DNA of 34,767 bases. Origin: a virus. The position numbers and the translations under genes are program-made. Of the stretch, positions 2,921 through 31,539 are shown in pieces. The DNA lies in the IMG/VR virus record IMGVR_UViG_3300010372_000127, positions 1-34,767 of that record. One strand, written 5' to 3'. How positions within the stretch are numbered: the stretch's first letter is position 1; every line of letters begins with the position of its first letter. The notes under the pieces were generated by a model, which searched no databases, was not told the origin of the DNA, and worked only from the letters and a program-made list of their open reading frames with translations.

Positions 2921-2938
2921 GTTTAAACGCTGTTTAAA
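2921..2938 (-). repeat. Phased GTTTAAA array a (upstream of fiber gene)
   Basis: GTTTAAA occurs at 2921-2927 and again at 2932-2938, an exact 11-bp step with CGCT between. It lies in the 64-bp gap between the gp48-like gene and the fiber gene, just upstream of the fiber SD. It is one of five intergenic arrays with the same 11-bp phasing (see findings). One-turn spacing suggests a protein-binding site; the ligand is unknown. Confidence 0.6.
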
Positions 2939-2962
2939 GCGATTTTTAGTTAAATAAAATGC

Positions 2963-3547
2963 CTAAACGGCGTAGTAAAACTCGTAATACAAACCACCGA
3001 CTTTGTAGCGGTTTAAGGTACATTCGAGCACTCTGGCATCGGATGTAACCAGTGGCGTAAGCACATCATCCAAACAGGTCATATATGCGCCTGGAATGCC
3101 GTAAACCGTCACTCTTAAGATGTAACGATATTGCGGTGGCCATAGTGGATATGTGCAGGATCTTAAACAGTGGTGAGGAAACGCCTCATCCACTTCAACG
3201 GTAAATCCAAGGTCTTCTGCTAACTTTTGGATGTTCCATGCTTGCAGGCCACCTTTGCGGTGAGACTTCTCGATTACCGCATAACGACGATACTCAAGGC
3301 TTGATACTGGCTCGGCCACGCACTCAGGCAGGCCCAAGTACTCTTCCCATTCATCCAACAACTGCAAGGTGGTTTCTGGGCGCATTTCAAGCAGCAAGGT
3401 ATCGGCGCTTTGTTCAACACGTTCTAGCCTTGGTGCATAGCCTTGGGTGTACTTATATAAGTCGAGTGAGGTTGCGCGTTGCCACAATACGCCACGCGGC
3501 ATTTGCGCTAATAAGGCGTTAGTCCACTGTGCTACGGAGTGCCCCAT
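2963..3547 (-). CDS. Baseplate/tail protein, Mu gp48-like (DUF2313)
   Basis: The 194-residue product matches the Mu gp48/YmfQ family in size, position and style. It opens with a helical region containing LLAQMPRGVLWQR, typical of the family's LxxLLPpG.aw start, followed by a central LLDEWEEYLGLPEC segment, which is the recognisable hallmark. The C-terminal half is beta-rich with several aromatic residues. In Mu and P2-like phages this protein joins the gp47 (J-like) wedge protein at the baseplate rim and helps link the fiber. It overlaps the end of the gp47 gene by 16 bp, indicating translational coupling. The following gene is the fiber, as in Mu. Confidence 0.85.
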   Translation of the reverse strand: MGHSVAQWTNALLAQMPRGVLWQRATSLDLYKYTQGYAPRLERVEQSADTLLLEMRPETTLQLLDEWEEYLGLPECVAEPVSSLEYRRYAVIEKSHRKGGLQAWNIQKLAEDLGFTVEVDEAFPHHCLRSCTYPLWPPQYRYILRVTVYGIPGAYMTCLDDVLTPLVTSDARVLECTLNRYKVGGLYYEFYYAV

Positions 3548-4599
3548 GTAATGGCTCCTAGTGCATGCAGTTCGGTGGCGGTGGCGGTAACATCGGCGGC
3601 TAAGTCTAAGGTGTAGTCAGTCACGCCAAGGGTTGAACCAATAGCGGTACGCACTGCACTTAATAACAGCGTTGAACCTGGGCTTAAGGTTTTAAAATAG
3701 CCTTTAATGCTGGCGGTAACGCTATCGCGTAGGTCGGCATTATCTGGGGTGATAGTGATCGCTAAATTGGTGGTTTTAAGCGTAAGCGGAATATAAACCG
3801 CCTCTATACCACCTGGGCGACCAACGTCCGCTCCGGTGGCAGGGTCATTATGGCGATAGATATAATCGGCCATGGCCACTTGATCTTGATACGTTGGCAA
3901 GATATCCACTCGGTCATCAAAAACAAACGCATAACCCACCGTTGCAGGGCCTTGGTAGTTATCAATCGCCCAAGCGCGGTTTACGCCTGCAACTTCACGG
4001 CACCAACCCACATAGTCATGCACTGCTCCCCCCATTGGTGGGTTGCGCTTACGGAACAATAAACGCTCAAGTACTTTAGCCGGTGTTTCGAGATCCGCGC
4101 CGCCAATTAAGCCGCCACTAATGCCATTAGGTTGAATGCCTGGCACGGTTGAAATCAGCGTTAATGTTTCGCCAGCAACAAGGTTGCCTGCTGCACCTGC
4201 TGCTTCGGCCTCAACTTGCACCACCACATTGCCGCCTGACGGCGTATTAGATAGCGTTACACGATATAAGCGTCCATCTGCATGGGTCATCACAGTATCA
4301 ACAGGGATGGCCACATTGCCCGCGAACGTCACAGGGCCAGCTGCGCTACTTGCCAGCTTTTGGATCACCCCTTCATAACGGGCGGTATCAACAATGGTTT
4401 GATCTTCTGATTCGCTAGATGGGATGATCTGCCGCACAATCCAGCTTTGGTAATCATATAAGTCGCGCACTGCGGCGCTTACCGCAGTGTTCAGCGCCTG
4501 CTCAATACCAAACTTAGGCAGAATGGTATCTAACGACGCTTCAATGTCGATTAAACCGCTTTCAATGAGTGTTCGTAGCGTGGGTACGTTATACGGCAC
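3532..4599 (-). CDS. Baseplate wedge protein, Mu gp47-like (Baseplate J family)
   Basis: At 355 residues this matches Mu gp47 in length. The N-terminal helical region (RDLYDYQSWIVRQIIPSSESED) and the central jelly-like segment (ATGNVAIP-type beta strands, GxxGNLVAGETLTLISTVPGI) are the family pattern of P2 gpJ/T4 gp6 wedge proteins. Conserved-looking motifs are GGADLETPAKVLERLLFRKRNPPMGG and the following HDYVGWCREVAGVNRAW, where the wedge contacts neighbours. Role: forms the baseplate ring that opens on sheath contraction. It overlaps the gp46-like gene by 11 bp and the gp48-like gene by 16 bp, so the three are probably translated as a unit. Confidence 0.92.
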   Translation of the reverse strand: MPYNVPTLRTLIESGLIDIEASLDTILPKFGIEQALNTAVSAAVRDLYDYQSWIVRQIIPSSESEDQTIVDTARYEGVIQKLASSAAGPVTFAGNVAIPVDTVMTHADGRLYRVTLSNTPSGGNVVVQVEAEAAGAAGNLVAGETLTLISTVPGIQPNGISGGLIGGADLETPAKVLERLLFRKRNPPMGGAVHDYVGWCREVAGVNRAWAIDNYQGPATVGYAFVFDDRVDILPTYQDQVAMADYIYRHNDPATGADVGRPGGIEAVYIPLTLKTTNLAITITPDNADLRDSVTASIKGYFKTLSPGSTLLLSAVRTAIGSTLGVTDYTLDLAADVTATATELHALGAITWGTP

Positions 4600-5044
4600 T
4601 TTGCGTCTCCCAACGTTTTGACACAGTAAAAGTAATCACTTCATCATCGGGTTTAGTGATAGTGATATGTAAAGCCAAGGTTTGAAACTGAGGGATAGAA
4701 CCCGTCACCACTACGCTTTTAGCGGTTACGCCATAACCGTCATCACGTAGCATCCACGCGAGCGAATCCTGCGCGTATTTAACGGCTTTATTGCGGGTAT
4801 CGGTGGTGAGCTTTTCGCGGTACACCAACCACAACTTAGACCCCCAAGGCGAGGCCGAAAAGGTATCACCTGGCCAGCCGCGTAGGTCGGTTGAATTATC
4901 GGGTAAGGTGTCGGAGTCATCGGCGCGGGCATCGGTAAACAGTGATATCAAAGCAAGGGTGGAAATCTCACCATCGATTCCACCCTCTACAATAACTCCG
5001 GTATTTTCCAGCATCTTAAAAAAGATGGTGCTCATAGCTGACAA
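4589..5044 (-). CDS. Baseplate protein, Mu gp46-like (GP46 family)
   Basis: The 151-residue protein carries the family signature around DLRGWPGDTF, near residue 52, followed by SKLWLVYREKLT. The C-terminus is a compact beta domain (ITKPDDEVITFTVSKRW). This corresponds to Mu gp46 and resembles the T4 gp25/P2 gpW role: joining the sheath to the first baseplate ring. The gene sits between the spike (gp45-like) and wedge (gp47-like) genes in Mu order, and overlaps the latter by 11 bp. Assignment rests on motif, size and position. Confidence 0.9.
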   Translation of the reverse strand: MSAMSTIFFKMLENTGVIVEGGIDGEISTLALISLFTDARADDSDTLPDNSTDLRGWPGDTFSASPWGSKLWLVYREKLTTDTRNKAVKYAQDSLAWMLRDDGYGVTAKSVVVTGSIPQFQTLALHITITKPDDEVITFTVSKRWETQSAV

Positions 5045-5046
5045 AC

Positions 5047-5694
5047 CTACTCAGGTGCTGTTGTCGGCCTGTTATCTGCGTCTTTGTGGATATGACCAAG
5101 GTAACTAATGTTATTGGCACTTAAATCAGAACCAGTAACTACACTGCCTGAAGTAATGCCATTAGTCGCTGTTATGCCTGAGTCTGTTGAAATATCACCA
5201 GTAACGTGTAACGGGCCATCGATTAATGTATCTGGTGAGATGATAGTGAACGAACCTGAGGCGTTAAAAATAACGTCGGTTGTTGATATGGTGAAGGTAT
5301 TAGCGATTTCAAAAATCACATCCTGCGCGGTGAGGATGATTTGGCCGTCTTTGGTAAGGCGGATCTTATGTCCTTCCAGATGGTATAGAAAAACATCACC
5401 AACTTCACCCTTTGGCCTAACTTTTTTATCTTCAACCGCAATTGCTACTAAACCAGATAATGCACCTCCAAGCGCAGCAACAATAGCCTCTGCACCCTCT
5501 GGCGGATACGAACTCATACCATAGTTTTGAAAGCGCTCAATGTTATCGGCTGATTCATCGGCATGCATTTTCACTTGCAGGTTCTGCCGCTGTAAGTCTT
5601 CTACAATTCCACTTACCACTGCACGGGTTAGCATGCCAGTAATGCGGCGACGAATAGGCGCGAGCAGCTTATTAATATAGGTTTCAGTTACCAT
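5047..5694 (-). CDS. Baseplate spike protein, Mu gp45-like (gpV family)
   Basis: A 215-residue trimeric central-spike protein. The N-terminal part is helical, then a gpV-like OB-fold region follows (residues about 40-110: SSYPPEGAEAIVAALGG...KVRPKGEVGDVFLYHLEGHKI). The rest is regular beta-strand repeats (DVIFEIANTFTISTTDVIFNASGSFTIIS), as expected for a triple beta-helix needle. The protein ends in GHIHKDADNRPTTAPE; the HIH pair matches the metal-binding tip motif seen in P2 gpV and Mu gp45, where a bound iron ion sharpens the apex. The spike punctures the outer membrane. Start ATG overlaps the hub gene by 7 bp. Confidence 0.93.
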   Translation of the reverse strand: MVTETYINKLLAPIRRRITGMLTRAVVSGIVEDLQRQNLQVKMHADESADNIERFQNYGMSSYPPEGAEAIVAALGGALSGLVAIAVEDKKVRPKGEVGDVFLYHLEGHKIRLTKDGQIILTAQDVIFEIANTFTISTTDVIFNASGSFTIISPDTLIDGPLHVTGDISTDSGITATNGITSGSVVTGSDLSANNISYLGHIHKDADNRPTTAPE

Positions 5695-6767
5695 TTGCTA
5701 CCGCCTAACTTAGTGTCTTTAACGATTTGCGCGGGGATATCCATCGCATCAGGCCGCACCACGTTAATTACCGCCAAACGGCCTGCATCGTCTTCACTGA
5801 ATAAGATAGAGGCAATTAGCATTTCTTCATCCAGCCCCATAATCTCGTCAATCACCGGCACAAGGGTATTAATGTCCCAAAGCTTATTAGTTTGCGGTAT
5901 ACGCCAGCCCGTTACCGTGTACTCGGCCATATTCGATTTACCTATGCTGCGCTGGCGTTCCCACTGGCCGCGCTTAGCCGCGCCTTCGGCGGTGGTGATT
6001 TCTTCATTAACGATAATCAACGGGCGATAACGGCCAATCTCGCTATCAGTCACATCAGCTTTAATGCCGCCAACCGTTGGCAAACCTGCGCTATCCCATT
6101 GGCCATGGGCAGCACCTGCGGCTTTAATGGTGAACTTGCTATAGCGTTGGCGCCAACTAAAACGACCACGGGCGGCTTTAATGTTCTCGCCCAAAATCAG
6201 CGATACACCCGCTTTGTTTTTGCTGGCGCGGGTGATCACTAAGTTGCCAAAGGTGTCACTGGTTAGCAGGACTCCGCGCTGTTTGGCTAAGCGCGCAAGC
6301 AGCTCGTGCGGGGTTTCGCCTTGCTCGATTTGAATACGTTGGAACGGCTCACCCACATCGGTATTAACGATTACCTTAATGCCAAATGGTTTGCACACGA
6401 TATCTGCGATTTGGGTGAGGGTTTGATTATTAAACTGGCCGCTTGGGTAGTCGATAGAGCAATCAACAAGGTCGGCGGTTTTATCGCGGCCACTCACACT
6501 AATTGTAATAGTTGACTCGTCATAGCTGGGCACCCAGTCATCAACGTAGCCGGTGATCACTCGCTCTCCGCCAATATCCACAGTGCAAGCTTGGCCTTGT
6601 TTAATCGGCTCAATAAAAGCTTTGTACTGCGCATCGTTACCTAAAAACTTATAGGTCATTTCTAAGTCAAATGCGCCAGACATGGCCTCAAGCGAGCGGG
6701 TAATGCCGATCTTCGTCCAACCTTGGTAAATCTTGCCACCGGCTTTTAATACAATCTCTTCGCTCAT
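5688..6767 (-). CDS. Baseplate hub protein, Mu gp44-like (gpD/gp27 fold)
   Basis: The 359-residue product matches Mu gp44/P in length. It starts with a beta-barrel region (LKAGGKIYQGWTKIGITRSLEAMSGAFDLEMT) and has the typical hub sequence NQTLTQIADIVCKPFGIKV with QIEQGETPHELLARLAKQRGVLLTSD near residues 150-180, a stretch shared by Mu gp44 and P2 gpD hubs. In the virion a trimer connects the tail tube to the gp45-like spike. The ATG lies exactly at the end of the circulation-protein gene (one-base overlap), and the next gene starts 7 bp before its stop, so expression is coupled. Confidence 0.92.
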   Translation of the reverse strand: MSEEIVLKAGGKIYQGWTKIGITRSLEAMSGAFDLEMTYKFLGNDAQYKAFIEPIKQGQACTVDIGGERVITGYVDDWVPSYDESTITISVSGRDKTADLVDCSIDYPSGQFNNQTLTQIADIVCKPFGIKVIVNTDVGEPFQRIQIEQGETPHELLARLAKQRGVLLTSDTFGNLVITRASKNKAGVSLILGENIKAARGRFSWRQRYSKFTIKAAGAAHGQWDSAGLPTVGGIKADVTDSEIGRYRPLIIVNEEITTAEGAAKRGQWERQRSIGKSNMAEYTVTGWRIPQTNKLWDINTLVPVIDEIMGLDEEMLIASILFSEDDAGRLAVINVVRPDAMDIPAQIVKDTKLGGSKW

Positions 6768-8083
6768 TAGCTGATCACCTCAACGGTATCAGTGGGCAAA
6801 ATAAACGCGGGGTTAGCAAAGCCGTTACGCTGCACTATGCTATCGCGGCGCTCGGTATTACCCGTTTGCTGCCACGCCACCAATGCCACCGGCACTGACT
6901 GCTTAGCTTGATATAAACTTACCTGCGGTAGTAGCTCTGCGCGTTCGCGGGTATCAGCAAGCACGGCTTGGCGTAGCTTGCGCATTTGTCGCCATACTGC
7001 CGAACTGCCAGCCTCAACCGCATCAGCAGCATAAGCAGCTAAGGTGTCGGCAATGCCATAGCCTAGGCTTTTAAGCTGTTGGCCCGTTAAAATGGCGTTG
7101 CGTTCTGCACCCGATAAGCTCTCGACTGTTTGCTCGGTATCATCCAGCTTTTGCACTATGTCGGCACTGGCCAAGGCGTAACATTGCGACACAACCGCAC
7201 TGTGTAAGGTTAGGGTTTTAAATGCCTCAGCATTGGCCGCAATCACGGCATTTTTAGAAGGGTTAGCAAACTTTGGTACCGATGCTGCCATGCCGCCAGT
7301 GCTGGCGATATTGCGCGATAACCCGCCCGTAATAGCGAGTTCTGCCCGTGTACCTTGCCAACGGCTTTGCACATTGGCGTAAACATCGAGGGCGCGGATC
7401 GGGTCTTTTACTACGCTCTTAACGTCTTCTAATAAGCCCATGGTCTCACGCGCTAAATCGCCAGGGTATGCAAGCAGCTCGCCCACGCTATCTTTAGTGC
7501 GCATTAAACGATCTGTCCACAGGCGTAAGTCATCAGGGAGTGACGGCAAGCCGCGGGTGAGTTCGTCTAAGTCATCTAAAAATTGATCCACCATATCACC
7601 CGCACCATCGAGCGTATTAGTATCAAAGCCAGCTTCAAAGGCGCTGGTTACATTGACTTTAGTGGCATCAGCCTCGGTATTAACTTGGTTAGCGGTATCC
7701 GATTTAGCAGTAGGGAATAAGTTTTCACCCACTTCGAACACTTCAAAACTAATGGTAGCGGTACCATCAACACGGTTAATTAACTTGTGGCTAACCTTAC
7801 CAATTTGAACTTTACGAATACCAAACCAAGGGTGAACTAATTCACCTGGGCCTTGCTTATTTAATGCCTCAAGCAGTGCTTGCAATTGCTCAAAATAGTC
7901 GGCACCCACCACACGGCCACTAATACGCTCTTGGGTGAGTACTTTGCCGTTATCTTCGGTATAGCCAATTTCTTTTTTGGGGTAAGCGTGGGGGATAGCA
8001 CGACGGCCGCTTTCACCATCGGCCTCTTCGAGTAAAAATTCAACGCCTCGAAACGAGGCGGTTAAACGGTCTTCAAACGCCAT
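6767..8083 (-). CDS. Mu gp43-like tail/DNA circularisation protein N
   Basis: A 438-residue protein. The N-terminal 100 residues (FEDRLTASFRGVEFLLEEADGESGRRAIPHAYP...GKVLTQERISGRVVG) are the DNA_circ_N family domain. The known architecture is a T4 gp53/P2 gpU-like domain placed in the tail or baseplate of Mu-type phages, despite the historic name DNA circulation protein. The rest is helical and less conserved, with LSGAERNAILTGQQLKSLGYGIADTLAAYA. The N-terminal domain carries WFGIRKVQIGKVSHKL, characteristic of the family. It follows the tape measure gene after an 11-bp gap, as in Mu. Confidence 0.9.
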   Translation of the reverse strand: MAFEDRLTASFRGVEFLLEEADGESGRRAIPHAYPKKEIGYTEDNGKVLTQERISGRVVGADYFEQLQALLEALNKQGPGELVHPWFGIRKVQIGKVSHKLINRVDGTATISFEVFEVGENLFPTAKSDTANQVNTEADATKVNVTSAFEAGFDTNTLDGAGDMVDQFLDDLDELTRGLPSLPDDLRLWTDRLMRTKDSVGELLAYPGDLARETMGLLEDVKSVVKDPIRALDVYANVQSRWQGTRAELAITGGLSRNIASTGGMAASVPKFANPSKNAVIAANAEAFKTLTLHSAVVSQCYALASADIVQKLDDTEQTVESLSGAERNAILTGQQLKSLGYGIADTLAAYAADAVEAGSSAVWRQMRKLRQAVLADTRERAELLPQVSLYQAKQSVPVALVAWQQTGNTERRDSIVQRNGFANPAFILPTDTVEVIS

Positions 8084-8094
8084 TTAACGCTCCT

Positions 8095-14523: not shown

Positions 14524-14541
14524 TTTTAAATCAGGTTTAAA
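14524..14541 (-). repeat. Phased GTTTAAA array b (upstream of gp35-like gene)
   Basis: TTTTAAA at 14524-14530 and GTTTAAA at 14535-14541 are 11 bp apart with TCAG between. Further GTTT-rich sequence follows to about 14562. The array lies in the 38-bp gap between genes and directly touches the SD of the gp35-like gene, so a bound protein would cover the ribosome-binding region on the DNA. Confidence 0.55.
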
Positions 14542-17516: not shown

Positions 17517-17525
17517 AAAACATTA

Positions 17526-17554
17526 TCTTAAACCATGTTTAAACCATGTTTAAA
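17526..17554 (-). repeat. Phased GTTTAAA array c (prophage centre)
   Basis: Three elements start at 17526 (TCTTAAA, degenerate), 17537 (GTTTAAA) and 17548 (GTTTAAA), each 11 bp apart, with CCAT as linker. It is the longest of the five arrays and lies 10 bp from the terminator stem in the central non-coding gap. Confidence 0.65.
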
Positions 17555-17607
17555 TCGCGTCAGGTTTGTTTAACCTTTTTTGCGAGTAACATCGTAAGGA
17601 TTTTAAA

Positions 17608-18387
17608 TTAAGAGCCGTTAGCGAGCGTTTGACGCATTCGCGACTCTTTTAATGCGAGGTCGTCGGCTAACATCTTTTCACGGCCTTTACCTGGGTTATA
17701 GTTCCATCCTGGATCAATCCCTTCTGGCAGTACTTCTACTTCTCCGGTGCGACGGTTTACCCATTGCTTATTTTTACTGGCGGGTACTGTGGTTTTAACT
17801 GTGCCCGCGGCGATCAGTTTATCGGCCTCATACTGCGACACTTGCCTGATCCAACATTTGCAGCCCCAACCGTTGGGCGTCATATGCACATCCCACCATG
17901 GATCATCCGCTGGCAACAAAGTGTTATTCCATTTTAAGTGCTCAATGCGGTGCTGCTCGCTTGGCCCCAGTTGATAAAGCAAATATGGCATAGTGCGCTT
18001 AGTGCGCTGGATACGTTCCCACTGGCCAGCGCTGCGAGCGGTGCGCATATTGGTTTTATAAATGGTTTTGATGCGACCTTCGCTACCGAGTTGCACTAGC
18101 TTGGTTTCATCTGTAAGTGGATCTTGCATGGTCTGCACGCCCCACCAACCCGACTTTACCAGCAAGGGTTTTAGGATATCGCGGAACTGCTCAAAGGTTT
18201 GGCCTTGGCCAATGGCATCTTCAACCAGCTGCTTAACCTCAACCAGCAAATCGGCATTCAGCATCTTAGCCACGGTAAAGGCATTAGCTTGTTCTTCCTT
18301 CCATACATCGCGAAAGTCGAAGCCCGGCTTAATGCCTTTACGCTTAAACCACTCAAGCGCCTCTTTGGGGACTAATGGATCAGCCAT
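17608..18387 (-). CDS. Head morphogenesis protein, Mu gpF-like (SPP1 gp7 family)
   Basis: From ATG 18387 the protein is 259 residues; the earlier ATG at 18396 directly touches the GGAG, which is correctly spaced (9 nt) for 18387. Typical features are AADLV.....F..I......A..E..kA (ALEWFKRKGIKP...WKEEQANAFTVAK), RIKTIYKTNMRTARSAGQWERI, and near the C-terminus DPWWDVHMTPNGWGCKCWIRQVS, the conserved WGCkCwv.pv of the family. Such proteins ride on the portal inside the prohead and are needed for assembly. The gene overlaps the portal gene by 8 bp. Confidence 0.92.
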   Translation of the reverse strand: MADPLVPKEALEWFKRKGIKPGFDFRDVWKEEQANAFTVAKMLNADLLVEVKQLVEDAIGQGQTFEQFRDILKPLLVKSGWWGVQTMQDPLTDETKLVQLGSEGRIKTIYKTNMRTARSAGQWERIQRTKRTMPYLLYQLGPSEQHRIEHLKWNNTLLPADDPWWDVHMTPNGWGCKCWIRQVSQYEADKLIAAGTVKTTVPASKNKQWVNRRTGEVEVLPEGIDPGWNYNPGKGREKMLADDLALKESRMRQTLANGS

Positions 18388-19945
18388 CTTGCGCATCTCC
18401 TAGGCCACGTAGCTGAAACATATATTGCGCCATTTGCGCAATAAACTGTTCCGCGCCCAGCTGCTCTTGCAACGCTGGCAAGCCTGCGGCGAACTCGTCA
18501 TAGGTAGCAGACTTGTTGGCGAGTTCAATAATCGGGTTCATAAACTCATCGGCCACTTGCTCCCATTCGCCCATGGCCTCGTTGGCTAGATTATCAATCT
18601 CGCGCTCTGCCGTATTGCGCACTTGGTTAATGGCAATCGTTTGGCCGTTGGCGCGGTTTAATGCGGTGGGCATAGGTTGCATACCAACGGTTTGCATGGG
18701 CAGCAAGGTTTCTTCACCAGCTTCAACCGTACTTAAGCCAAGCTTATCGGCCATTTCGGAGGCGCTAACCTTAAGCCCACGGTCAATTAACGGGGTAAGG
18801 CTATTAACCAGCATCTGCAAATCTTCTGGCTCTGGTACCTTAATTCGCACCTTGGGATAGCGCAGCTGCTCGCCCCAGTTCAGAATGATATAGGGCTTAA
18901 TCAAGTACTCGTTGATTGAGGCTTCAAGCTGGCGCGCATCCCACTTAGCGATATCGATCCGCACTTCATTGTGAATTGTGGCTTGCGATTGTGAGCTGCC
19001 GTTATCGGCGGTCATGGTTTGGCCAAGGACCGCCTTACTGATTTGCTCATCGCACCAACGGGCCATATTTTCAAATAGGGTATCGCCGCCATTACCCTTG
19101 GCGGTTTCGATCAGTTCCAGCTTCATCGACTCGGGGATCACCGCACCAGCATCACTGGCGATTCTACCAATCGCATTAATCAAGGTGCTGATATCTGATT
19201 CGCTGGCATTGGCACCATACTTACCCACGCGCACCGGCACGCCAAACACTTCGGCAAAGGCCCACCAATCGCGCACGGTAAATGATTTGAGCATATACAT
19301 CACAGCCACAAGCCGCGCTAAACCGTTGCGCCATACGCTGCCAGACTTTGACCGTGGGGTATGAATGATAAATTTATAAGGCTCAAGCGCCGCACCCATT
19401 GGCGCGTCTTCACTAATTAATAAAATCTGTTCCAGCGTTTGTTGGTCTTGGCGTAGGTAGCGCGGGTCTACCCATTTGTAGTCCTGCGGTTTCCATGGAG
19501 TTGACTTGGTATCCCAAAGAATTTGCACTACGGCCAAGCCCTTGCCTAGACCATCGAGCAAATCGAAAAACAACTCAGGGATTTGGTCATCGTTGATGAT
19601 CTCGCGGGCGCGTTCGGCCATCAGTACATCGATGGCATCATCACTGGCCGCTTCAACCGTTGGCGCAATGGCCGCGACTGCAAACTTACGGGTGCGCAGC
19701 TGGGCGGCATAGTGCAAGTCGCGTTCTTCAATCTCTTCGGCCAGCGTCATATAGGCTTCAGGATCGTTACCATCGATAACTGATCGCAGCACTCCCGCTA
19801 AACGCTGCGGCGTGAGTGTCGATGCCACGGTTGTAGCGCGTGGGTTACGAATGCCTGTGGTATAAGCGCGGGCGATATCTTCGCCCATGATCTGCTTATC
19901 GGCTTTAAATGGCTTGCCTGTTGATGGGTCAATAATGGCGCTCAT
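18380..19945 (-). CDS. Portal protein, Mu gp29-like (DUF935)
   Basis: The 521-residue protein matches Mu gp29 in size. The N-terminus includes AYTTGIRNPRATTVASTLTPQRLAGVLRSVIDGNDPEAYMTLAEEIEERDLHYAAQLRTRK, the DUF935 opening. Further hallmarks are KGLAVVQILWDTKSTPWKPQDYKWVDPRYLR, RNGLARLVAVMYMLKSFTVRDWWAFAEVFGVPVRVGKYG and KAVLGQTMTADNGSSQSQATIHNEVR. Twelve copies form the vertex through which DNA enters and leaves. ATGA overlap with the terminase gene indicates coupling. The C-terminal 90 residues are helical, as in other portals' barrel regions. Confidence 0.95.
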   Translation of the reverse strand: MSAIIDPSTGKPFKADKQIMGEDIARAYTTGIRNPRATTVASTLTPQRLAGVLRSVIDGNDPEAYMTLAEEIEERDLHYAAQLRTRKFAVAAIAPTVEAASDDAIDVLMAERAREIINDDQIPELFFDLLDGLGKGLAVVQILWDTKSTPWKPQDYKWVDPRYLRQDQQTLEQILLISEDAPMGAALEPYKFIIHTPRSKSGSVWRNGLARLVAVMYMLKSFTVRDWWAFAEVFGVPVRVGKYGANASESDISTLINAIGRIASDAGAVIPESMKLELIETAKGNGGDTLFENMARWCDEQISKAVLGQTMTADNGSSQSQATIHNEVRIDIAKWDARQLEASINEYLIKPYIILNWGEQLRYPKVRIKVPEPEDLQMLVNSLTPLIDRGLKVSASEMADKLGLSTVEAGEETLLPMQTVGMQPMPTALNRANGQTIAINQVRNTAEREIDNLANEAMGEWEQVADEFMNPIIELANKSATYDEFAAGLPALQEQLGAEQFIAQMAQYMFQLRGLGDAQDG

Positions 19946-24348: not shown

Positions 24349-24390
24349 AAAAGCACAACCTGATTAATAACCTAATCGGATTGTGCTTTT
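24349..24390 (-). terminator. Terminator-like hairpin touching the endolysin start codon
   Basis: Outer arms AAAAGCACAA (24349-24358) and TTGTGCTTTT (24381-24390) are perfect complements, with a further imperfect CTGATTA/TAATC-G pairing within. On the minus strand the stem ends in TTTT directly followed by the endolysin ATG at 24348, and the endolysin SD (AGG) is within the stem. It would terminate the mor transcript or mask the endolysin ribosome site. Confidence 0.7.
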
Positions 24391-24425
24391 AATGGTTGAG
24401 CTTTATAAAATAACCTTGATTGTTG
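24391..24425 (-). promoter_or_regulatory. Candidate middle/late promoter region before the lysis genes
   Basis: The minus strand contains TATAAA at 24407-24402 in an AT-rich gap between the secreted-protein gene and the hairpin. No good -35 is seen 17 bp upstream, as expected if an activator such as Mor were needed. This is a weak, position-based guess. Confidence 0.25.
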
Positions 24426-24875: not shown

Positions 24876-24885
24876 ACATTCATCC

Positions 24886-25323: not shown

Positions 25324-25356
25324 GGCCGTCACCTAGGTTAGTTAAAAACGCTGGAT

Positions 25357-25384
25357 AGAAAAACACCCCGCAAGGCGAGGTGTT
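25357..25384 (-). terminator. Terminator between early operon and mor
   Basis: On the minus strand AACACC-CGC...GCG-GGTGTT (25362-25384) forms a stem with one mismatch, followed by TTTTT. It would end the early transcript before mor. A second inverted repeat, ATCCCAT-CTTC-ATGGGAT (25405-25422), lies just before it, overlapping the end of the preceding gene; no U-tract follows that one. Confidence 0.75.
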
Positions 25385-25421
25385 GTTAGTATACGGCATA
25401 GGTGATCCCATCTTCATGGGA

Positions 25422-25697
25422 TTAGGTTAATACCCATTCATACATTAAATCGTTTTGTTTATCTTCTGATAGACGACCATCAACATAAATTTCTCTAGTG
25501 AAACCTGTTGAACTTACCAATTTTCTTAATACATATCTGATGATTTCAAACCCGTGACCGCCTATTTTTTGTTGAATTTCTAAGTAATCAGGTGAGCATC
25601 CGATATCTTTTACTGGTATAGAAACTCTTTTATTATGAAGAGGACCACCTAAAAACAAAAACTCTACTTTATGCATTTCCACAATAAAACTCCTCAT
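25422..25697 (-). CDS. Small unknown early protein
   Basis: The longest reading is 91 residues, but the first 21 bp overlap gemA and have no SD; GTG at 25682 lies 7 nt after AGGAG, and ATG at 25676 is another option, giving 84-86 residues beginning MHKVEFLFLGGPLHNKRVSI. The protein is beta-rich with FLFLGGPLHNKRVSIPV and YVLRKL..STGFTREIYVDGRLS. No family recognised; the LGGPxxG-like opening is seen in small proteins of unknown function. It is the last gene of the early operon, directly before the terminator. Confidence 0.65.
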   Translation of the reverse strand: MRSFIVEMHKVEFLFLGGPLHNKRVSIPVKDIGCSPDYLEIQQKIGGHGFEIIRYVLRKLVSSTGFTREIYVDGRLSEDKQNDLMYEWVLT

Positions 25698-26202
25698 AGT
25701 ATGCTGCTAACTTTTCATAGCCTGCGGGTCCTGTCAATTTATCATTAGCAGGAACGCGGCCACCACTGGCAACAATCGCATCGGCCATACAGCGGTAATG
25801 CCATTTCTTTAACCCTTCCAGTACCTGAGCGGCTTTCTCAGAGGTAAGCCACTCGATACGATCAACGCCTTGGCCATTGCTGGTTTTGGTCATCCGCTTA
25901 ACGTAAGTGTTTAATGCCACTTCGGTTTTGCTGCGCACAAATCCTTGTTCAAACATTACCAACCAAATAACACGGATCTTAGCTACCTCAGCCGCCCGCG
26001 CTTTTGGTCTGCTCTTAGCATTAACGGCTTTAGGTTTAAATCCGCGTTGCTTCATGGCATCCACTACCGCATTGAGCTGCGACTCGCTCAAGCCTTTGGC
26101 GCTACGTGCGCCGGTGATCTGCTCTAACAAATTGCGGTACATATCATCGTCAAGTTGCAGATCACGCTTACCGATTTGCACCAGCTTAAGGGCGTTAGAC
26201 AT
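25669..26202 (-). CDS. gemA: GemA-like regulatory protein, Mu gp16-like (DUF1018)
   Basis: The 177-residue protein shows the DUF1018 family pattern: KLVQIGKRDLQLDDDMYRNLLEQITGARSAKGLSESQLNAVVDAMKQRGFKP at the start, then KIRVIWLVMFEQGFVRSKTEVALNTYVKRMT and LTSEKAAQVLEGLKKWHYR. In Mu the GemA product modulates host gene expression and possibly DNA supercoiling; the molecular basis is not well known. It lies immediately before mor's terminator as in Mu, and overlaps the triple-HTH gene by 8 bp, indicating coupled translation. Confidence 0.92.
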   Translation of the reverse strand: MSNALKLVQIGKRDLQLDDDMYRNLLEQITGARSAKGLSESQLNAVVDAMKQRGFKPKAVNAKSRPKARAAEVAKIRVIWLVMFEQGFVRSKTEVALNTYVKRMTKTSNGQGVDRIEWLTSEKAAQVLEGLKKWHYRCMADAIVASGGRVPANDKLTGPAGYEKLAAYYEEFYCGNA

Positions 26203-26779
26203 ACATTCCCCTAAAGGCTACTAGATTTTTACGGGCTGAACGATGCAGCAGTTGCAGGGCTTTGCTATAGCCACGGCTTTCTTTTATTTCTGGTTGATAG
26301 ACATCAGTGACAACTTCTAACGCAGAATCTTGTTCACGCAATAGATCCTGCTTACTTAATATGGCCACCAAGGTGCTATGTCCAACATGCGCTTTTTTAG
26401 CCGCAGCATTAACAGATAAACCCTGTTGGTAATACTCAATGGCCTTTTGTAGATTAACCTTCCTAACCTTCATATCGCGTCTAAGTAATCCGCGAGCACC
26501 TAAAGCTTTTCCAAGGGTGGCATTACTGATAGCAACTTGTGTTGATGCCTCAGTTATTGTTAAACCGTTTTTATAAAGTTCGATTGCTTTCTCTAACTTT
26601 TGCTGTTGAAGCGCTTTAGTATCACGACTTAAGCCTTGTGATTTTAATGCCTTTTTTAACGCAGAGGTTGATACACCTGCACAGTCAGCACAATCAATAA
26701 TGGATAGGTTCAAGTTTTTAAGATACAGCTGAATAGCGTTGTTTAAACGCTCAACATATTCTTGATTTACTTTAGCCAT
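26195..26779 (-). CDS. Protein with three tandem helix-turn-helix repeats
   Basis: The 194-residue protein consists mostly of three similar units of about 48-50 residues: residues 11-58, 61-107 and 109-150. Each starts with a helix (AIQLYLKNLNLSI, AIELYKNGLTITEA, AIEYYQQGLSVNAA), continues with a HTH of the A..agvs.stL.kaL type (CADCAGVSTSALKKALKSQGL; TQVAISNATLGKALGARGL; KKAHVGHSTLVAILSKQDL) and ends in an LxRxx linker. The units are like single HTH_psq/resolvase-type motifs, and three in a row suggest a DNA-binding protein contacting several sites in series. An excellent SD (AGGAGG, 6 nt) precedes the ATG. It overlaps gemA by 8 bp. Target unknown; see findings on the 11-bp-phased arrays. 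Confidence 0.8.
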   Translation of the reverse strand: MAKVNQEYVERLNNAIQLYLKNLNLSIIDCADCAGVSTSALKKALKSQGLSRDTKALQQQKLEKAIELYKNGLTITEASTQVAISNATLGKALGARGLLRRDMKVRKVNLQKAIEYYQQGLSVNAAAKKAHVGHSTLVAILSKQDLLREQDSALEVVTDVYQPEIKESRGYSKALQLLHRSARKNLVAFRGMYV

Positions 26780-26788
26780 AACAACCTC

Positions 26789-27043
26789 CTATGCGGTTTT
26801 TAATTGCGTAGTTGGATGATTAACCAAGGTTACTTTGACATGATCAAAATAAGCGTACTTCACAAAACCCTGACCACAATGTGGACAAAAAGCTAATGAA
26901 TCCCACATCACGCCTTTTGTTTCTGGCGCAATGGTTTTCAACTCATTACCGCAGCATGGCACGGTATAAACCAATAGGTTAAAGCCTGCATCCTCAACCT
27001 TAGATACCCACTCTTGATACTCAATTAGTTTTGAATTTGACAT
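26789..27043 (-). CDS. Small zinc-ribbon protein, unknown function
   Basis: The 84-residue protein contains CCGNE (residues 30-31) and CPHCGQGF (53-56), enough for a zinc ribbon (C-C...C-x2-C). It reads YTVPCCGNELKTIAPETKGVMWDSLAFCPHCGQGFVKYAYFDHVKV, like small cargo zinc ribbons found in early regions of many prophages. No catalytic motif is evident. It lies between two other small early genes, with SD upstream and 9-bp gaps on both sides, and is probably cotranscribed with the triple-HTH gene and gemA. Confidence 0.72.
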   Translation of the reverse strand: MSNSKLIEYQEWVSKVEDAGFNLLVYTVPCCGNELKTIAPETKGVMWDSLAFCPHCGQGFVKYAYFDHVKVTLVNHPTTQLKTA

Positions 27044-27052
27044 ATGTTTATC

Positions 27053-27310
27053 CTATGCCGCGTTGCGGCGTTCGTTGTCTTTTACTGTACGTTCGCTGCG
27101 GCGCTCGTCTTGGCAGGCTTTGCAATGGCATTGCAGACCATCAGCCTCCCGTGACGATACCGACCAAAACAGCGTGTCTTGCGGCCAAAACTCATGGCAA
27201 CTGGGGCAAAGCTTTTGCAGGCCAAGCTCGTCGTCAATGATGGCCGTGCAGCGTTCCATCCGGCGCGCAATTAGCATTGGCTTCATTAATGGCGTGTATT
27301 CACCGAACAT
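27053..27310 (-). CDS. Small Cys-rich, putative zinc-binding protein
   Basis: The 85-residue protein has CPSCHEFWP and QCHCKACQDERRSERT, i.e. C-x2-C followed 24 residues later by C-x-C-x2-C, flanked by a basic tail. That pattern suits a zinc finger, similar to HNH-less recombination-endonuclease-type or DksA-like fingers; no clear family. MFGEYTPLMKPMLIARRMERC forms the N-terminus. GGGGTG is the SD. A phased GTTTAAA array (27322-27350) lies directly upstream, in the 40-bp gap to the next gene. Confidence 0.65.
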   Translation of the reverse strand: MFGEYTPLMKPMLIARRMERCTAIIDDELGLQKLCPSCHEFWPQDTLFWSVSSREADGLQCHCKACQDERRSERTVKDNERRNAA

Positions 27311-27321
27311 AGTTCACCCCC

Positions 27322-27350
27322 GTTTAAACCTGTTTTAAACCACGTTCAAT
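27322..27350 (-). repeat. Phased GTTTAAA array d
   Basis: GTTTAAA at 27322-27328, TTTTAAA at 27333-27339 and a degenerate GTTCAAT at 27344-27350, again at 11-bp steps. It lies between two early genes and just upstream of the operon segment that includes the triple-HTH gene. The last element touches the stop codon of the upstream gene. Confidence 0.55.
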
Positions 27351-27619
27351 TAATATTCAGTTGAGGCAAATAGACGCGGAAACTCGCCGCCATCAGCTAT
27401 TACATTTTGTAGTTGTTGCTTAAAGGTGATTCTTACTGGATGACCATTTTCATCATCATCTTCAGAAAAATAGGTATGAGAAAGTAACTGTTCCTCACTC
27501 AACTCATATGGATCATCAACTAAATCAGGATCGCCACAATATTCGATATATGCTGCGACACATGATTCAAGTGATTCACCAACAAACCAATCGTCATCAT
27601 TCATTGCATAAACGTTCAT
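27350..27619 (-). CDS. Small acidic protein of unknown function
   Basis: The 89-residue protein from ATG 27619 (AGGAG 8 nt upstream; the longer frame to 27679 runs through two hairpins and is unlikely) starts MNVYAMNDDDWFVGESLESC and is very acidic: CGDPDLVDDPYELSEEQL, FSEDDDENGHPV. This resembles acidic phage proteins that imitate DNA or bind host enzymes, and some early phage proteins of the type DDWx.a.sleea....., but no family is certain. Possible anti-restriction role only as speculation. Confidence 0.65.
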   Translation of the reverse strand: MNVYAMNDDDWFVGESLESCVAAYIEYCGDPDLVDDPYELSEEQLLSHTYFSEDDDENGHPVRITFKQQLQNVIADGGEFPRLFASTEY

Positions 27620-27649
27620 TTTCTTACTCCTACTTGGCTGCTCATCAGT

Positions 27650-27697
27650 GCTCGGCAACCACGCCGAGCAGACAGGCAAGGCACCTAAGCGCCTTGC
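27650..27697 (-). terminator. Two small hairpins between early genes
   Basis: GCTCGGC/GCCGAGC (27650-27656 with 27663-27669, 7 bp, 6-nt loop) and GCAAGGC/GCCTTGC (27676-27682 with 27691-27697, 7 bp, 8-nt loop) lie in the 87-bp gap 27620-27706. No strong U-tract follows either, so they may be weak terminators or mRNA processing/stability elements. Confidence 0.5.
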
Positions 27698-27706
27698 TTG
27701 TTTCGC

Positions 27707-28177
27707 TTACGCCACATTGGCTTGTTTGGTTTTTAAAAAGTACGCATCCGTTAGCTCTAAGCCTTTTAGCTTTTTAAACTGGCGGCAGAGCACAGAGGAC
27801 TTTGAGAAGAACGGTTCAAACCATTCGCGGCGACTGTGTAAATCGGGATACTCTTTTTTGGCTTGGCGTTTACCGTATATTTTTTCAATGCTGGCGATAT
27901 ATTTTGGTTTATACCTAGCCATGGTTCGCTTACTCCAAACCTCAGGCAAAATCGTTGGCGCATCTTCTGGATTGGTAAACCATCCACCTTGAATTTGACC
28001 ATCGATATAAACCACTAACAGCGTGGTTGACTCGTTTTTACGCTCGCGTTTAACAATGATTTCAGAGCCTTGGTAGTTGAACTTAACGCATGCGAACATG
28101 CCTGATAATTCATCCTCAATCTGTTGCCATTGCTCTTTAGTGATTGCGGGTGTACTTACTTGATTTTGTTCACTCAT
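27707..28177 (-). CDS. Unknown early protein (156 residues)
   Basis: The product has ITKEQWQQIEDELSGMFACVKFNYQGSEIIVKRERKNESTTLLVVYIDGQIQGGWF, a short alpha/beta unit, followed by RMYKPKYIA-like basic sequence: TMARYKPKYIASIEKIYGKRQAKKEYPDLHSRREWFEPFFSKSSVLCRQFKKLKGLEL. I recall similar proteins in Mu-like prophages of Shewanella and Vibrio, but no function is known. The basic second half suggests nucleic-acid contact. It overlaps the upstream gene by 8 bp and is part of the early operon. Confidence 0.65.
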   Translation of the reverse strand: MSEQNQVSTPAITKEQWQQIEDELSGMFACVKFNYQGSEIIVKRERKNESTTLLVVYIDGQIQGGWFTNPEDAPTILPEVWSKRTMARYKPKYIASIEKIYGKRQAKKEYPDLHSRREWFEPFFSKSSVLCRQFKKLKGLELTDAYFLKTKQANVA

Positions 28178-28352
28178 CGTCCCATTCCTTCTCGCCGGTA
28201 TCTTTCACTACTACTCGTTTTGCCTTTGGCGCTTTGCGGTTTCGCCAGTTTTCGCCAAAGGTATTGATGGCCCATTGCTCCGCCTGATCAGGCTTTTTAA
28301 ATCGCCCATAGGCCATCACGCTTTTGATCACATCGTTATGGTGTTTGGCCAT
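28170..28352 (-). CDS. Small basic unknown protein (60 residues)
   Basis: This short protein starts MAKHHNDVIKSVMAYGRFKK and ends with a charged tail, APKAKRVVVKDTGEKEWDDE. The start overlaps the preceding gene by 17 bp; GAGGG lies 8 nt before ATG, and the end overlaps the next gene by 8 bp, which argues for a real, coupled gene. No family recognised. Confidence 0.6.
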   Translation of the reverse strand: MAKHHNDVIKSVMAYGRFKKPDQAEQWAINTFGENWRNRKAPKAKRVVVKDTGEKEWDDE

Positions 28353-28572
28353 TGAGCTTGCCCTCGGCGATTAACGCATCAAACTCTTCGCGCATGCTCG
28401 ATTGCTCGTTACCCAGTACAAAGTTAAGGGCGGCGATATAGCCATCCTCAAAGCTTGAATCTGGATAAGCTGTGCCTTCGGTTTCTATAACTGCCTCGGC
28501 CATTTTGATTTCTTTTTCTAACTCACCTCTGCTGTATGGCGCGGTGAACAGCCATTTAAGATCATGTTGCAT
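28336..28572 (-). CDS. Small unknown early protein (79 residues)
   Basis: The ATG at 28572 overlaps the stop of the upstream gene (ATGCAACATGA), indicating coupling; the in-frame extension to 28611 lies wholly inside that gene and is rejected. The protein (MQHDLKWLFTAPYSRGELEKE...) is acidic and helical, with SSFEDGYIAALNFVLGNEQSSMREEFDALIAEGKL. EDGYIAAL.wVLg is common in phage early proteins of unknown function, which fits but does not tell the role. Confidence 0.65.
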   Translation of the reverse strand: MQHDLKWLFTAPYSRGELEKEIKMAEAVIETEGTAYPDSSFEDGYIAALNFVLGNEQSSMREEFDALIAEGKLNGQTP

Positions 28573-28834
28573 CGTTGGTTTTGTCCCATCGCTTGTCGTA
28601 AACCGTGACAATGTGTTTGTTCACAATCACAAAGTAGGCGCAGTCACATTCCAATATTCGCTTGGGTTGCCATGGTGCCCGCTTAATGATCCGTCTTAGT
28701 TGGCGCTTGCTTGGCCGAGTGGCGTTAGCGATTGCATGTACCATCTCGGCAAAGCCTTTGCCTGTTCGTTGTCGCCAGCGGATAACCGCATGGCGACTCA
28801 CGTTTACCTCTCCATATCGGGTAAACAGCTGCAT
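28562..28834 (-). CDS. Small basic protein, DUF4258-like fold possible
   Basis: The 90-residue protein, MQLFTRYGEVNVSRHAVIRW..., contains SRHAVIRWRQRTGKG near the N-terminus and ends with VNKHIVTVYDKRW. The sequence arrangement His-x..Rx.qR....g....i...i.......l....yivv.....i.TVY resembles DUF4258/RelE-superfamily-like and other small phage proteins with RHA..R...R. This resemblance is weak. High pI suggests RNA or DNA binding. It lies 2 bp after the DUF3164 gene. Confidence 0.6.
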   Translation of the reverse strand: MQLFTRYGEVNVSRHAVIRWRQRTGKGFAEMVHAIANATRPSKRQLRRIIKRAPWQPKRILECDCAYFVIVNKHIVTVYDKRWDKTNDAT

Positions 28835-28836
28835 GG

Positions 28837-29454
28837 TTACAACTTGGCGATATCGAGCGACACCTGCTTATAAACGCCATCGTCACAGCGTTCGTACACC
28901 CGCAGATAAGGCGTAGTGCCCGCCACTTTGATGGAGTCGGCAATGGCATCCATGGCCTCACGCCATTCGGCATCGTCGATATTGAGCTGCCGTAAACCCA
29001 GCACTTGGTTTACATCGATATGGCCTTGTTTGTTGACGCGGAACGCCAGCTCAACTAAGGCTTTAATTTGGTCGCTTGACCCCACAGACCAGCGCGTAAT
29101 GCACGAGTCAATCTTGGCTTTGGCGGCTTGGATCCGTTCATCAAAAATACGGTGTTCACCAATGGTCAGTTGCACTTTGTGCTTACCGTCGAACGACATT
29201 AGTGAGACGTTGCCTTTAGCGCCGCCGTACTTCACACCAAACTCGCTAGCGCTGAGGTCGACAAAGTCGCCCACCATGCCCATAGACTGGGCTTTGTATT
29301 GCGCCATGCTGCATTGCAGCGCTTTGGCATCGGCAACAATTTTCAGCACTAGCTCATCGCGCAGCTTGTCGATCTCTTTGATTTGGCTCTCAGGTACAGC
29401 ATGGCCAAGGGCGTTTAAGCGATAGCCAGTAGGGGCTTGGTTAGTGGTAGTCAT
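28837..29454 (-). CDS. DUF3164 family early protein
   Basis: The 205-residue protein matches the DUF3164 pattern of Mu-like phages: GYRLNALGHAVPESQIKEIDKLRDELVLKIVADAKALQCSMAQYKAQSMGMVGDFVDLSASEFGVKYGGAKGNVSLMSFDGKHKVQLTIGEHRIFDERIQAAKAKIDSCI. The hallmark is the central GGkKGNVtL.SfDG..kv... A role in the early, semi-essential functions is likely but not established. SD AAGGAA precedes ATG. It is often mis-annotated as a sulfate transporter. Confidence 0.88.
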   Translation of the reverse strand: MTTTNQAPTGYRLNALGHAVPESQIKEIDKLRDELVLKIVADAKALQCSMAQYKAQSMGMVGDFVDLSASEFGVKYGGAKGNVSLMSFDGKHKVQLTIGEHRIFDERIQAAKAKIDSCITRWSVGSSDQIKALVELAFRVNKQGHIDVNQVLGLRQLNIDDAEWREAMDAIADSIKVAGTTPYLRVYERCDDGVYKQVSLDIAKL

Positions 29455-29463
29455 ATTTGTTCC

Positions 29464-29784
29464 TTAAAAGTTCTTAGGCCACACGCTGATTAACTCAGGT
29501 GAGTATGGGTTTAGGGTGGTGGTTAGTTGTTCGGGTAAATCCAAGCCATCATCGGGCCAGCGCACTAAGCAGCCGCTGAGAGTGGCTACACATATCTTGT
29601 TAACCGTGCCGCGATGCACTTCGGTAATATGCGCAGCTTTACCGCGCAGCTTGTCGAAGGGTTTATCGATATCAATCACTGGCGTTAAATGCTGAGTGTT
29701 GATGGTTAACACATCGCAACCATGCAGCTTTAAACGGCCAACGGCGGTGAGGGCGATTGCCTGTTTTTCAACGAGTGATCTCAT
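29464..29784 (-). CDS. Unknown early protein (106 residues)
   Basis: The sequence starts MRSLVEKQAIALTAVGRLKL and has DVLTINTQHLTPVIDIDKPFDKLRGKAAHITEVHRGTVNKICVATLSGCLVRWP. This reads as a small alpha/beta domain; no motif recognised. It is placed between two early genes with 2-bp and 9-bp gaps, so it is part of the operon. The SD is GGGA with 8-9 nt spacing. Confidence 0.65.
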   Translation of the reverse strand: MRSLVEKQAIALTAVGRLKLHGCDVLTINTQHLTPVIDIDKPFDKLRGKAAHITEVHRGTVNKICVATLSGCLVRWPDDGLDLPEQLTTTLNPYSPELISVWPKNF

Positions 29785-29785
29785 T

Positions 29786-30064
29786 TTAAAAATCCCTTTC
29801 TAGTGAATTGAAAAATGCAGCGTTGTTTTTCAACTTTGATTCGACTGAATCAAGATCAACAACTTCACGGTAAATCAGCCCAGGTGAAACGATGATTTCG
29901 TCATCGCGCATTTGGTCTAAACAAAAGCCGCCGCGTACTTCCATCGCCACACGATCAAACGCAAACCGTTTGCCTTTGCTGTTGGTGATAACTAGGTCAA
30001 CCTCAATGGTTTTACCTTTAAAAATCACGGTTTTTGTTGCGCCGTTTTGTGCTAGTGCTTGCAT
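29786..30064 (-). CDS. Unknown early protein (92 residues)
   Basis: The product reads MQALAQNGATKTVIFKGKTI and EVDLVITNSKGKRFAFDRVAMEVRGGFCLDQMRDDEIIVSPGLIYREVVDLDSVESKLKNNAAFFNSLERDF. It is beta-rich in the first half and helical at the end. I know no family for it; GGGGTAAACC precedes ATG as SD. The gap to the small membrane protein gene is 3 bp. Confidence 0.65.
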   Translation of the reverse strand: MQALAQNGATKTVIFKGKTIEVDLVITNSKGKRFAFDRVAMEVRGGFCLDQMRDDEIIVSPGLIYREVVDLDSVESKLKNNAAFFNSLERDF

Positions 30065-30067
30065 GGT

Positions 30068-30388
30068 TTACCCCTTTACTTGGCAGTAGATTTGGCCGTA
30101 AACGCGACCATTGTTAGCGATCTGATTTAGGCGACGTTCTGCATCAGCAAACGACATAGCCCATATATGAAACGTCATTGTGCGGCCGCGTTGGTCGGTG
30201 TATTCCACTCCGTACTTAAACCACTTAACCCCGTTGTCATCGGTGTAGGTTTGCTCGCTATCTGGCTCGTCACCAAACAGATTGAGCATGCGGCGAACAA
30301 AGCCAGCGAGGCCATAACAGAGGTAAGCGATTACCGCGACACCCGCCAAAAAACCGATAAATTGCATAATTGATTCAGTAGTGCTCAT
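30068..30388 (-). CDS. Small membrane protein, unknown function
   Basis: From ATG 30388, which has GGAGG 6 nt upstream (the in-frame ATG at 30445 lies in the previous gene without SD), the protein has 106 residues. A membrane segment (IMQFIGFLAGVAVIAYLCYGLAGFV, about residues 7-31) is followed by a soluble domain with YTDDNGVKWFKYGVEYTDQRGRTMTFHIWAMSFADAERRL. Such an inner-membrane protein with cytosolic or periplasmic tail could affect superinfection or host physiology; inference only. Confidence 0.7.
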   Translation of the reverse strand: MSTTESIMQFIGFLAGVAVIAYLCYGLAGFVRRMLNLFGDEPDSEQTYTDDNGVKWFKYGVEYTDQRGRTMTFHIWAMSFADAERRLNQIANNGRVYGQIYCQVKG

Positions 30389-30399
30389 ATCAACCTCCG

Positions 30400-30528
30400 T
30401 TATTGGCAACCAAAACAAACGCCACCAAAAAGACTGAATATCCATTCAATTAACTGAAATGCGCAGTAACCAACGCAAGCGATTACAACTAGCCAAAATA
30501 ATTGAGCTGCTAAAGCTAACTGTTCCAT
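30400..30528 (-). CDS. 42-residue membrane peptide
   Basis: ATG 30528 is preceded by GAGGTGGG and gives MEQLALAAQLFWLVVIACVG then YCAFQLIEWIFSLFGGVCFGCQ, a single hydrophobic helix with a Cys-rich end. A further ATG at 30543 overlaps the end of gene B (ATGAGTGA). The peptide is upstream of the other membrane protein by 11 bp. Small hydrophobic phage peptides often act in superinfection exclusion or inhibition of host membrane enzymes; not shown here. Confidence 0.6.
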   Translation of the reverse strand: MEQLALAAQLFWLVVIACVGYCAFQLIEWIFSLFGGVCFGCQ

Positions 30529-30535
30529 ACCCACC

Positions 30536-31492
30536 TCACTCATTGGTTTCGAGTTCGTTAAACGCGGTACGCAGCAGCGCCTCAGTAATCGCCGCGCCTT
30601 TGGCAAACATGGCGGCTAGCTTGAGCGTTTTACTCAGTAGGCGTAGGCCACCTGGGCGCTCGCTGATTTGGATCATCAGGCTTAGCTCTGCGTCGTGCTG
30701 GATGTTCCACGCCTTTGCAATGGCGCGAACGTCAGCTTGTTTGGTTTTGTGAATGCCGCGCTTTTTAGCAATGCGCGAGAACAGGCGGGCAAAGTCTTCG
30801 TTACGACGGCCACCGGTTAACTGGGTGTAAACCTTGTTGTTACCCACTAGCGCCATGCCAATGCCGGTTTCTTCTTGCAGGATGCGCAGTTCTTCTAGCG
30901 TTGGGTAATCGAGGTGGTCTGCTTCGTCCACAATGATTAAGCCTTCGCTACCCTTTAGGCGCTGGCGGATAACACGGGCTAATGGGCCTTTGGTGCGCGG
31001 GGCTTGCGCCATGCCTAGCTCCATGGCGATTTCGTACAGCAGCTCAGTGAGGCTTGAACGTGAAGGGCTGGCGATGACCTTCCAAACGTTGTTATTGCTG
31101 CGTTGGTATTCATCTAAGGTTTTGCTTTTGCCCACGCCTGACGCGCCGTAGATCACCACTATGGCCTCGGTGATTTGTGCATAGGTGAGGTCGTCCATAA
31201 TCATTTTGGCGGTGGGCGTTAGCACAAAGCCTGGGTCTAGATTTGGGTTAGCCTCGCGTTGCTCACGCATACGCAGCCAGTTATCTAACTTTTTAACCAC
31301 TTGCGTGGTGTTAGCCTTGTATTGGCCGTTAAGCACTTGGCTTAGGGTGGATGGCGCAACGCTAATCTCTTGCGCTAAATGCGCAGCCACTACGCGCCCT
31401 GCTTCAATCAGGGTATTAATTTGCATTACTACATCCGTTTTACGGATTTCGGCTTTGCTGTCTTTGGCCGTTAGGCTGTGTACGTTTGACAT
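30536..31492 (-). CDS. B: Transposition target-selection ATPase, MuB-like
   Basis: The 318-residue AAA+ protein has an N-terminal HTH (residues about 35-75: VVAAHLAQEISVAPSTLSQVLNGQYKANTTQVVKKLDNWL), Walker A GASGVGKS (116-123) and Walker B LIIVDEAD (185-192), then sensor motifs including ALVGNNKVYTQLTGG and FARLFSRIAKK. C-terminal residues form the MuB_C-like DNA-binding domain. In Mu, B forms ATP-dependent filaments on target DNA, delivers it to the transposase and gives target immunity. It lies directly downstream of A; a phased GTTTAAA array is in the gap. SD AAGGACG precedes ATG. Confidence 0.95.
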   Translation of the reverse strand: MSNVHSLTAKDSKAEIRKTDVVMQINTLIEAGRVVAAHLAQEISVAPSTLSQVLNGQYKANTTQVVKKLDNWLRMREQREANPNLDPGFVLTPTAKMIMDDLTYAQITEAIVVIYGASGVGKSKTLDEYQRSNNNVWKVIASPSRSSLTELLYEIAMELGMAQAPRTKGPLARVIRQRLKGSEGLIIVDEADHLDYPTLEELRILQEETGIGMALVGNNKVYTQLTGGRRNEDFARLFSRIAKKRGIHKTKQADVRAIAKAWNIQHDAELSLMIQISERPGGLRLLSKTLKLAAMFAKGAAITEALLRTAFNELETNE

Positions 31493-31510
31493 AGGTCGTC
31501 CTTATTGTTG

Positions 31511-31539
31511 GTTTAGATCAGGTTTAAACGGGTGTTAAA
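31511..31539 (-). repeat. Phased GTTTAAA array e (between genes A and B)
   Basis: GTTTAGA at 31511-31517, GTTTAAA at 31522-31528 and degenerate TGTTAAA at 31533-31539 at exact 11-bp steps. The array occupies the 42-bp gap between transposase and ATPase genes, upstream of the B SD. Confidence 0.55.

Follow-up and report, generated by a model that had tools for sequence, protein, structure and literature searches.

Why should a transposable phage carry, in gap after gap between its genes, short runs of one AT-rich palindrome repeated at a fixed interval, and what would bind to them? The stretch analyzed here (the window, 34,767 nt) is the record of a Mu-like prophage, with Shewanella phage MuM16-2 and Vibrio phages such as martha 12B12 as its nearest named relatives. 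A first-pass annotation had pointed out five arrays of GTTTAAA elements, which it compared with repressor stoperators or with condensing sites.

Phased arrays in the window and its relatives

All five arrays could be confirmed in the sequence, and their unit starts are exactly 11 bp apart in every case. The unit consists of an 8-bp palindrome, GTTTAAAC, plus a 3-bp linker, and its palindromic nature leaves the repeats without a strand. Together with a sixth, degenerate array at the left end, they are located as follows:

2921–2938, no strand: array in the gp48/fiber gap
14524–14541, no strand: array before the gp35-like gene, directly before the SD
17526–17554, no strand: central array, three GTTTAAAC-type units, aligned with the strong gyrase site of Mu and with 29 other phages
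27322–27350, no strand: array before the Cys-rich early gene
31511–31539, no strand: array in the A/B gap; its first unit (minus strand) overlaps the A stop codon
34681–34708, no strand: left-end array in degenerate form, immediately after the repressor stop codon

Pairs of GTTTAAAC with up to two mismatches over 16 positions occur five times at spacing 11 in the window and zero or one time at each other spacing from 8 to 33, the expectation at spacing 11 being 0.03 in random sequence of the same dinucleotide make-up. This is far above chance. The first-pass annotation was right that one face of the DNA is marked once per turn, at an exact 11-bp pitch. Its placement of the fiber, gp35, Cys and B arrays before gene starts also holds, the distance from array end to start codon being 11–23 nt, as does its judgment that the arrays are not CRISPR, terminators or ordinary promoters. 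The non-central arrays are short (2–5 units), and the linkers of central and non-central arrays alike are GC-rich (0.61–0.62, versus 0.39–0.42 in the flanks). Outside the non-central arrays the averaged AT/GC periodicity fades, and the flank signal is weak. TTTAAA is in excess outside the arrays as well, with 41 copies versus 3 of AAATTT in the window and 910 versus 252 in 31 related phages.

In 26 relatives, TTTAAA-N5-TTTAAA with at most one mismatch yielded 146 matches, versus 2 for the same pattern read backwards. The arrays recur in the same gene gaps, in line with the earlier expectation that their positions are kept: next to the repressor stop codon close to the left end, between A and B, upstream of the Cys-rich gene, in the central gap, and upstream of gp35 and of the fiber gene. 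At the left end, relatives carry a good array, GTTTAAA-N4-GTTTAAAC, of which the window copy is a degenerate version, and a conserved out-of-phase step of 8 bp is found there; a right-end array is present in two relatives. The A/B and gp48/fiber gaps measure mostly about 6–19 bp without an array and mostly 28–70 bp with one, indicating that arrays come and go as discrete pieces that fill a gap.

The right end of the window prophage seems to interrupt a host response-regulator gene (434–870), with the ORF at 434–811 ending in an unrelated tail, and GAGCAAT repeats near 810–850 resemble TTGAGCA repeats that relatives have at their left ends. At 828–861, AAAAAAGAGCAAT...ATTGCTCTTTTTT form a near-perfect inverted repeat with A and T runs on either side, resembling a bidirectional terminator immediately beyond the fiber gene. 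One relative, Vibrio phage vB-Vv-ZX4290, carries, per annotation, a diversity-generating retroelement (Avd and reverse transcriptase) at 35288–36894, near its right end.

The arrays extend well beyond this group. A Mu-type transposase is encoded in 25 of the 50 viral records checked, among the matches listed, for RTTTAAAC-N3-GTTTAAAC, versus 9 of 50 and 4 of 50, again among the matches listed, for the control spacers N2 and N4. Distant transposable phages, in which A is about 22% identical, have 7–11 phased pairs each and arrays with as many as five units in exact 11-bp steps. TTTAAA arrays with steps of 10 and 11 bp are present in Pasteurella AFS-2018a, Mannheimia 3927AP2, Haemophilus SuMu and Bacillus BalMu-1, where they lie close to one end or both, around the midpoint and in between. 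The pitch is 11 in the Shewanella/Vibrio phages and a mixture of 10 and 11 in the Pasteurellaceae phages, which is what helical phasing predicts. Observed versus expected numbers of TTTAAA pairs at 10/11 bp are 85 versus 0.4 in the group of the window, 39 versus 1.0 in the distant group, 30 versus 0.2 in Pasteurellaceae and 5 versus 0 in BalMu-1; spacings of 20–22 and 31–33 are also raised, while anti-phase spacings are low. This enrichment, tens- to hundreds-fold across groups, is confined to TTTAAA: seven other AT palindromes gave 0–1 pairs at 10/11 bp in the same phage groups. No array match was found in the transposable phages D3112, StopSmel and POA1180, and the proposed gyrase site of Ab30 (18736–18772) contains no TTTAAA. 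An even spacing of arrays along the genome, suspected in SuMu, was not significant overall (p 0.04–0.88).

Arrays that precede SD sequences, built from a repeated palindrome able to pair with its neighboring copy, might act as RNA elements in leaders, such as a hairpin or a translational enhancer. However, their predicted folding is not unusual (z from -1.2 to +0.8), the enriched spacings include multiples of the helical repeat (20–22, 31–33), and neither the left-end nor the central array directly precedes a gene, which makes an RNA role very improbable.

The central array and the strong gyrase site of Mu

What the first-pass annotation overlooked is that the central array occupies the position of the strong gyrase site (SGS) of the Mu family. 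In Mu, the gyrase cut is annotated at 17879/17880, between G and I. The central array of the window lies in the equivalent gap, from G/MuF to protease I, at 0.495 of the window, and the gap can be aligned with Mu around the cut. An alignment of 30 phages and Mu reveals a conserved core over the Mu cut, followed by a phased AT block and then by TTTAAAC units, with units 20, 31 and often 42 bp further on; the units of the window, at 0, +20, +31 and +42, make up a right arm with phased anisotropic bending signals. The start of the paired units lies 35 bp away from the cut in Mu, and the central array of the window begins at the matching place. Most of 41 transposable phages have one array close to their midpoint, and it is kept even where almost no others remain (YPCBV-1, 0.52; B23, 0.51; VW-6B, 0.50). 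The central array is thus very probably a homologue of the SGS, and its homology with Mu strongly suggests that gyrase binds there. Two further features can be placed beside it:

about 17567–17574: further unit GGTTAAAC, 20 bp from the central array
17523–17653, minus strand: putative full SGS (130-bp motif) with a predicted cut near 17589/17590, extrapolated from the Mu cut and the motif length of PMC6379681

The likeness to the Mu SGS covers the central place between G/MuF and protease I, the conserved core at the cut, and right-arm AT blocks once per turn with GC in between. The right arm is known to be essential and to carry repeated bending signals (Pato and colleagues, reviewed in PMC10052514), and a structure has it wrapped around the C-terminal domain of GyrA, the minor grooves of its AT repeats turned toward the protein and GC outward (PMC11626157). 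In contrast to Mu, the right arm of the window phage contains near-perfect GTTTAAAC units, and arrays of the window type are found again in other gaps and at the ends or close to them, whereas Mu, which lacks good arrays, has only the SGS and a degenerate counterpart in the A/B gap. The 130-bp motif of E. coli gyrase from Topo-Seq has a similar periodicity of GC in the arms, about 10.75 bp, and an AT minor groove toward the protein (PMC6379681); it is, however, degenerate and without a fixed hexamer, while the present arrays use TTTAAA and the non-central ones fall short of a full site in length.

The best explanation for the arrays as a whole, to which we give an even chance, is that they are SGS-type sites at which DNA wraps around host gyrase. 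TTTAAA once per turn, with GC-rich linkers, would let the DNA wrap the C-terminal domain of host GyrA with AT minor grooves inward and GC outward, the central array forming the right arm of the SGS of this phage. As in Mu, gyrase loaded at the midpoint would then extrude the prophage as one supercoiled loop and bring its ends together, and the remaining arrays, whether close to the ends, between A and B or elsewhere between genes, may serve as extra loading or wrapping sites that help to keep the prophage a separate supercoiled domain. The GC-rich linkers and the variation between steps of 10 and 11 fit wrapping on a protein surface, as with gyrase, and a universal host factor is consistent with a range of array hosts from Proteobacteria to Bacillus. 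Motif, pitch and GC-rich linkers are common to the central and the non-central arrays. The odds that the latter too are gyrase wrapping sites appear roughly balanced, and binding of gyrase to them is inferred with moderate confidence. Counted against gyrase are the shortness of the non-central arrays, their fading periodicity, the 8-bp step at the left end and the absence of arrays from some transposable phages. Moreover, plain AT/GC (Fourier) periodicity over whole genomes singles out neither the arrays nor the SGS of Mu itself, which, together with a signal specific to TTTAAA, leaves room for a sequence-specific protein; the motif common to the arrays might be that of a different protein with a binding site at the SGS as well.

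Transposition proteins, regulators and repressors as candidate binders

The main rival to gyrase is provided by the transposition proteins: the arrays might be internal sites for the N-terminal domain of transposase A, similar to an enhancer, or for the B ATPase, acting in self-marking (genome immunity) or in end synapsis. Of the phage proteins, A and B are the ones that nearly every array-bearing genome has; the signal is limited to TTTAAA, and several phages have arrays at both ends or close to them. The arrays also look phage-specific: in the 4.3-Mb Vibrio genome, the host checked in most detail, eight of nine copies of the pattern are inside one Mu-like prophage. In several other host genomes there is little excess over the reversed-pattern control, or even fewer copies than in it, and general use of the pattern by the host was rejected. 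A Pseudoalteromonas genome contains 34 copies versus 9 in the control, partly clustered; the matches listed from the genome collection are mostly background, with at least seven loci having two or more Mu-like genes.

Within Mu, strong binding of MuB comes about by a route that is unexplained, yet the protein is described as a non-specific binder (PMC7350765). Furthermore, the motif is unchanged in distant phages although A is only about 22% identical there, Mu, in which genome immunity was shown, has no good arrays, and the central arrays fall on a gyrase site that is already known. We therefore regard A or B as a possible but rather unlikely binder. That the scattered arrays constitute genome-wide self-marking by B or A, with or without gyrase, which would label phage DNA, build the prophage domain and block self-insertion, is similarly unlikely; if true, it would be a mechanism of the kind sought for Mu genome immunity. 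The Mu enhancer/operator (IAS) likewise consists of repeated sites near the left end of a transposable phage, but it lies between repressor and ner and overlaps the operators, where neither the window nor its relatives have an array.

A sequence-specific regulator or nucleoid protein other than gyrase, A or B could also occupy tandem 11-bp sites, in a geometry like that of PhoB-type boxes or tandem RHH operators. The exact pitch, the strong preference for TTTAAA over other AT hexamers and the four window arrays just before start codons would suit such a protein; nevertheless, we consider it doubtful, as the step in Pasteurellaceae is sometimes 10 and sometimes 11, the left-end array does not precede a gene, and no single phage regulator is shared by every phage with arrays. 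The repressor type, Ner, Mor, GemA, the triple-HTH protein and the product of g27707 each go undetected in some of these phages, the last in several. Ner, GemA and Mor were not found in the distant array-bearing phages, DUF3164 was undetected in SuMu, BalMu-1 and AFS-2018a, all with strong arrays, and a relative of the triple-HTH protein is present in only one other array-bearing phage. Ner, Mor, GemA, the triple-HTH protein, g27707 and DUF3164 were accordingly rejected as the general binder; this includes the first-pass suggestion of Ner, missing from distant phages with 7–11 phased pairs, or of the triple-HTH protein. Because no such regulator is shared, A, B or a host factor remain. The occurrence of arrays in a Bacillus phage argues against IHF, Fis and H-NS, given the distribution of these proteins. 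The gene g27707 (27707–28177) codes for a 156-aa protein without a Pfam match that is 46–50% identical in very distant transposable phages, in which it is more conserved than transposase A or B.

The arrays have in common with the repressor-bound stoperators of mycobacteriophage L5 that they are short, numerous and intergenic and are spread across the genome of a temperate phage, and some stand before genes. However, the L5 sites are asymmetric, oriented with transcription (PMC9283540) and match their own operator, while the arrays are palindromic, bear no relation to the operators and stay constant across repressor types. The repeats in the repressor/ner gap differ between relatives (TGCGCA, AGGAACA, CATCCGTT and GGGACG types) and include no GTTTAAAC array, and the repressors of distant array-bearing phages are only 25–33% identical. 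In the window, this gap (33781–33933) has repeats of TGCGCA and TGTTACA types, which are likely operators. Since operator regions vary and carry no motif, the stoperator model was removed, and we give it next to no credence; from the earlier pairing of stoperators with condensing sites, it is the condensing role that comes close to the best explanation, wrapping by gyrase.

Significance for transposable phages

SGS-like sites are known from Mu and a few prophages, reportedly through the work of Oram and Pato in 2004 and Oram et al. in 2006. In the literature searched, we did not find a genome-wide set of such arrays conserved across transposable phages, and the extra arrays appear to be undescribed so far. 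The central phased array offers a simple sequence signature for an SGS-type site in many transposable phages, including those of Vibrio, Shewanella and Pasteurellaceae and a Bacillus phage. In Mu, the SGS organizes the prophage domain, but placed alone in E. coli DNA it is insufficient (PMC3820752); the extra arrays are candidates for what else from Mu must accompany the SGS for a prophage domain to form.
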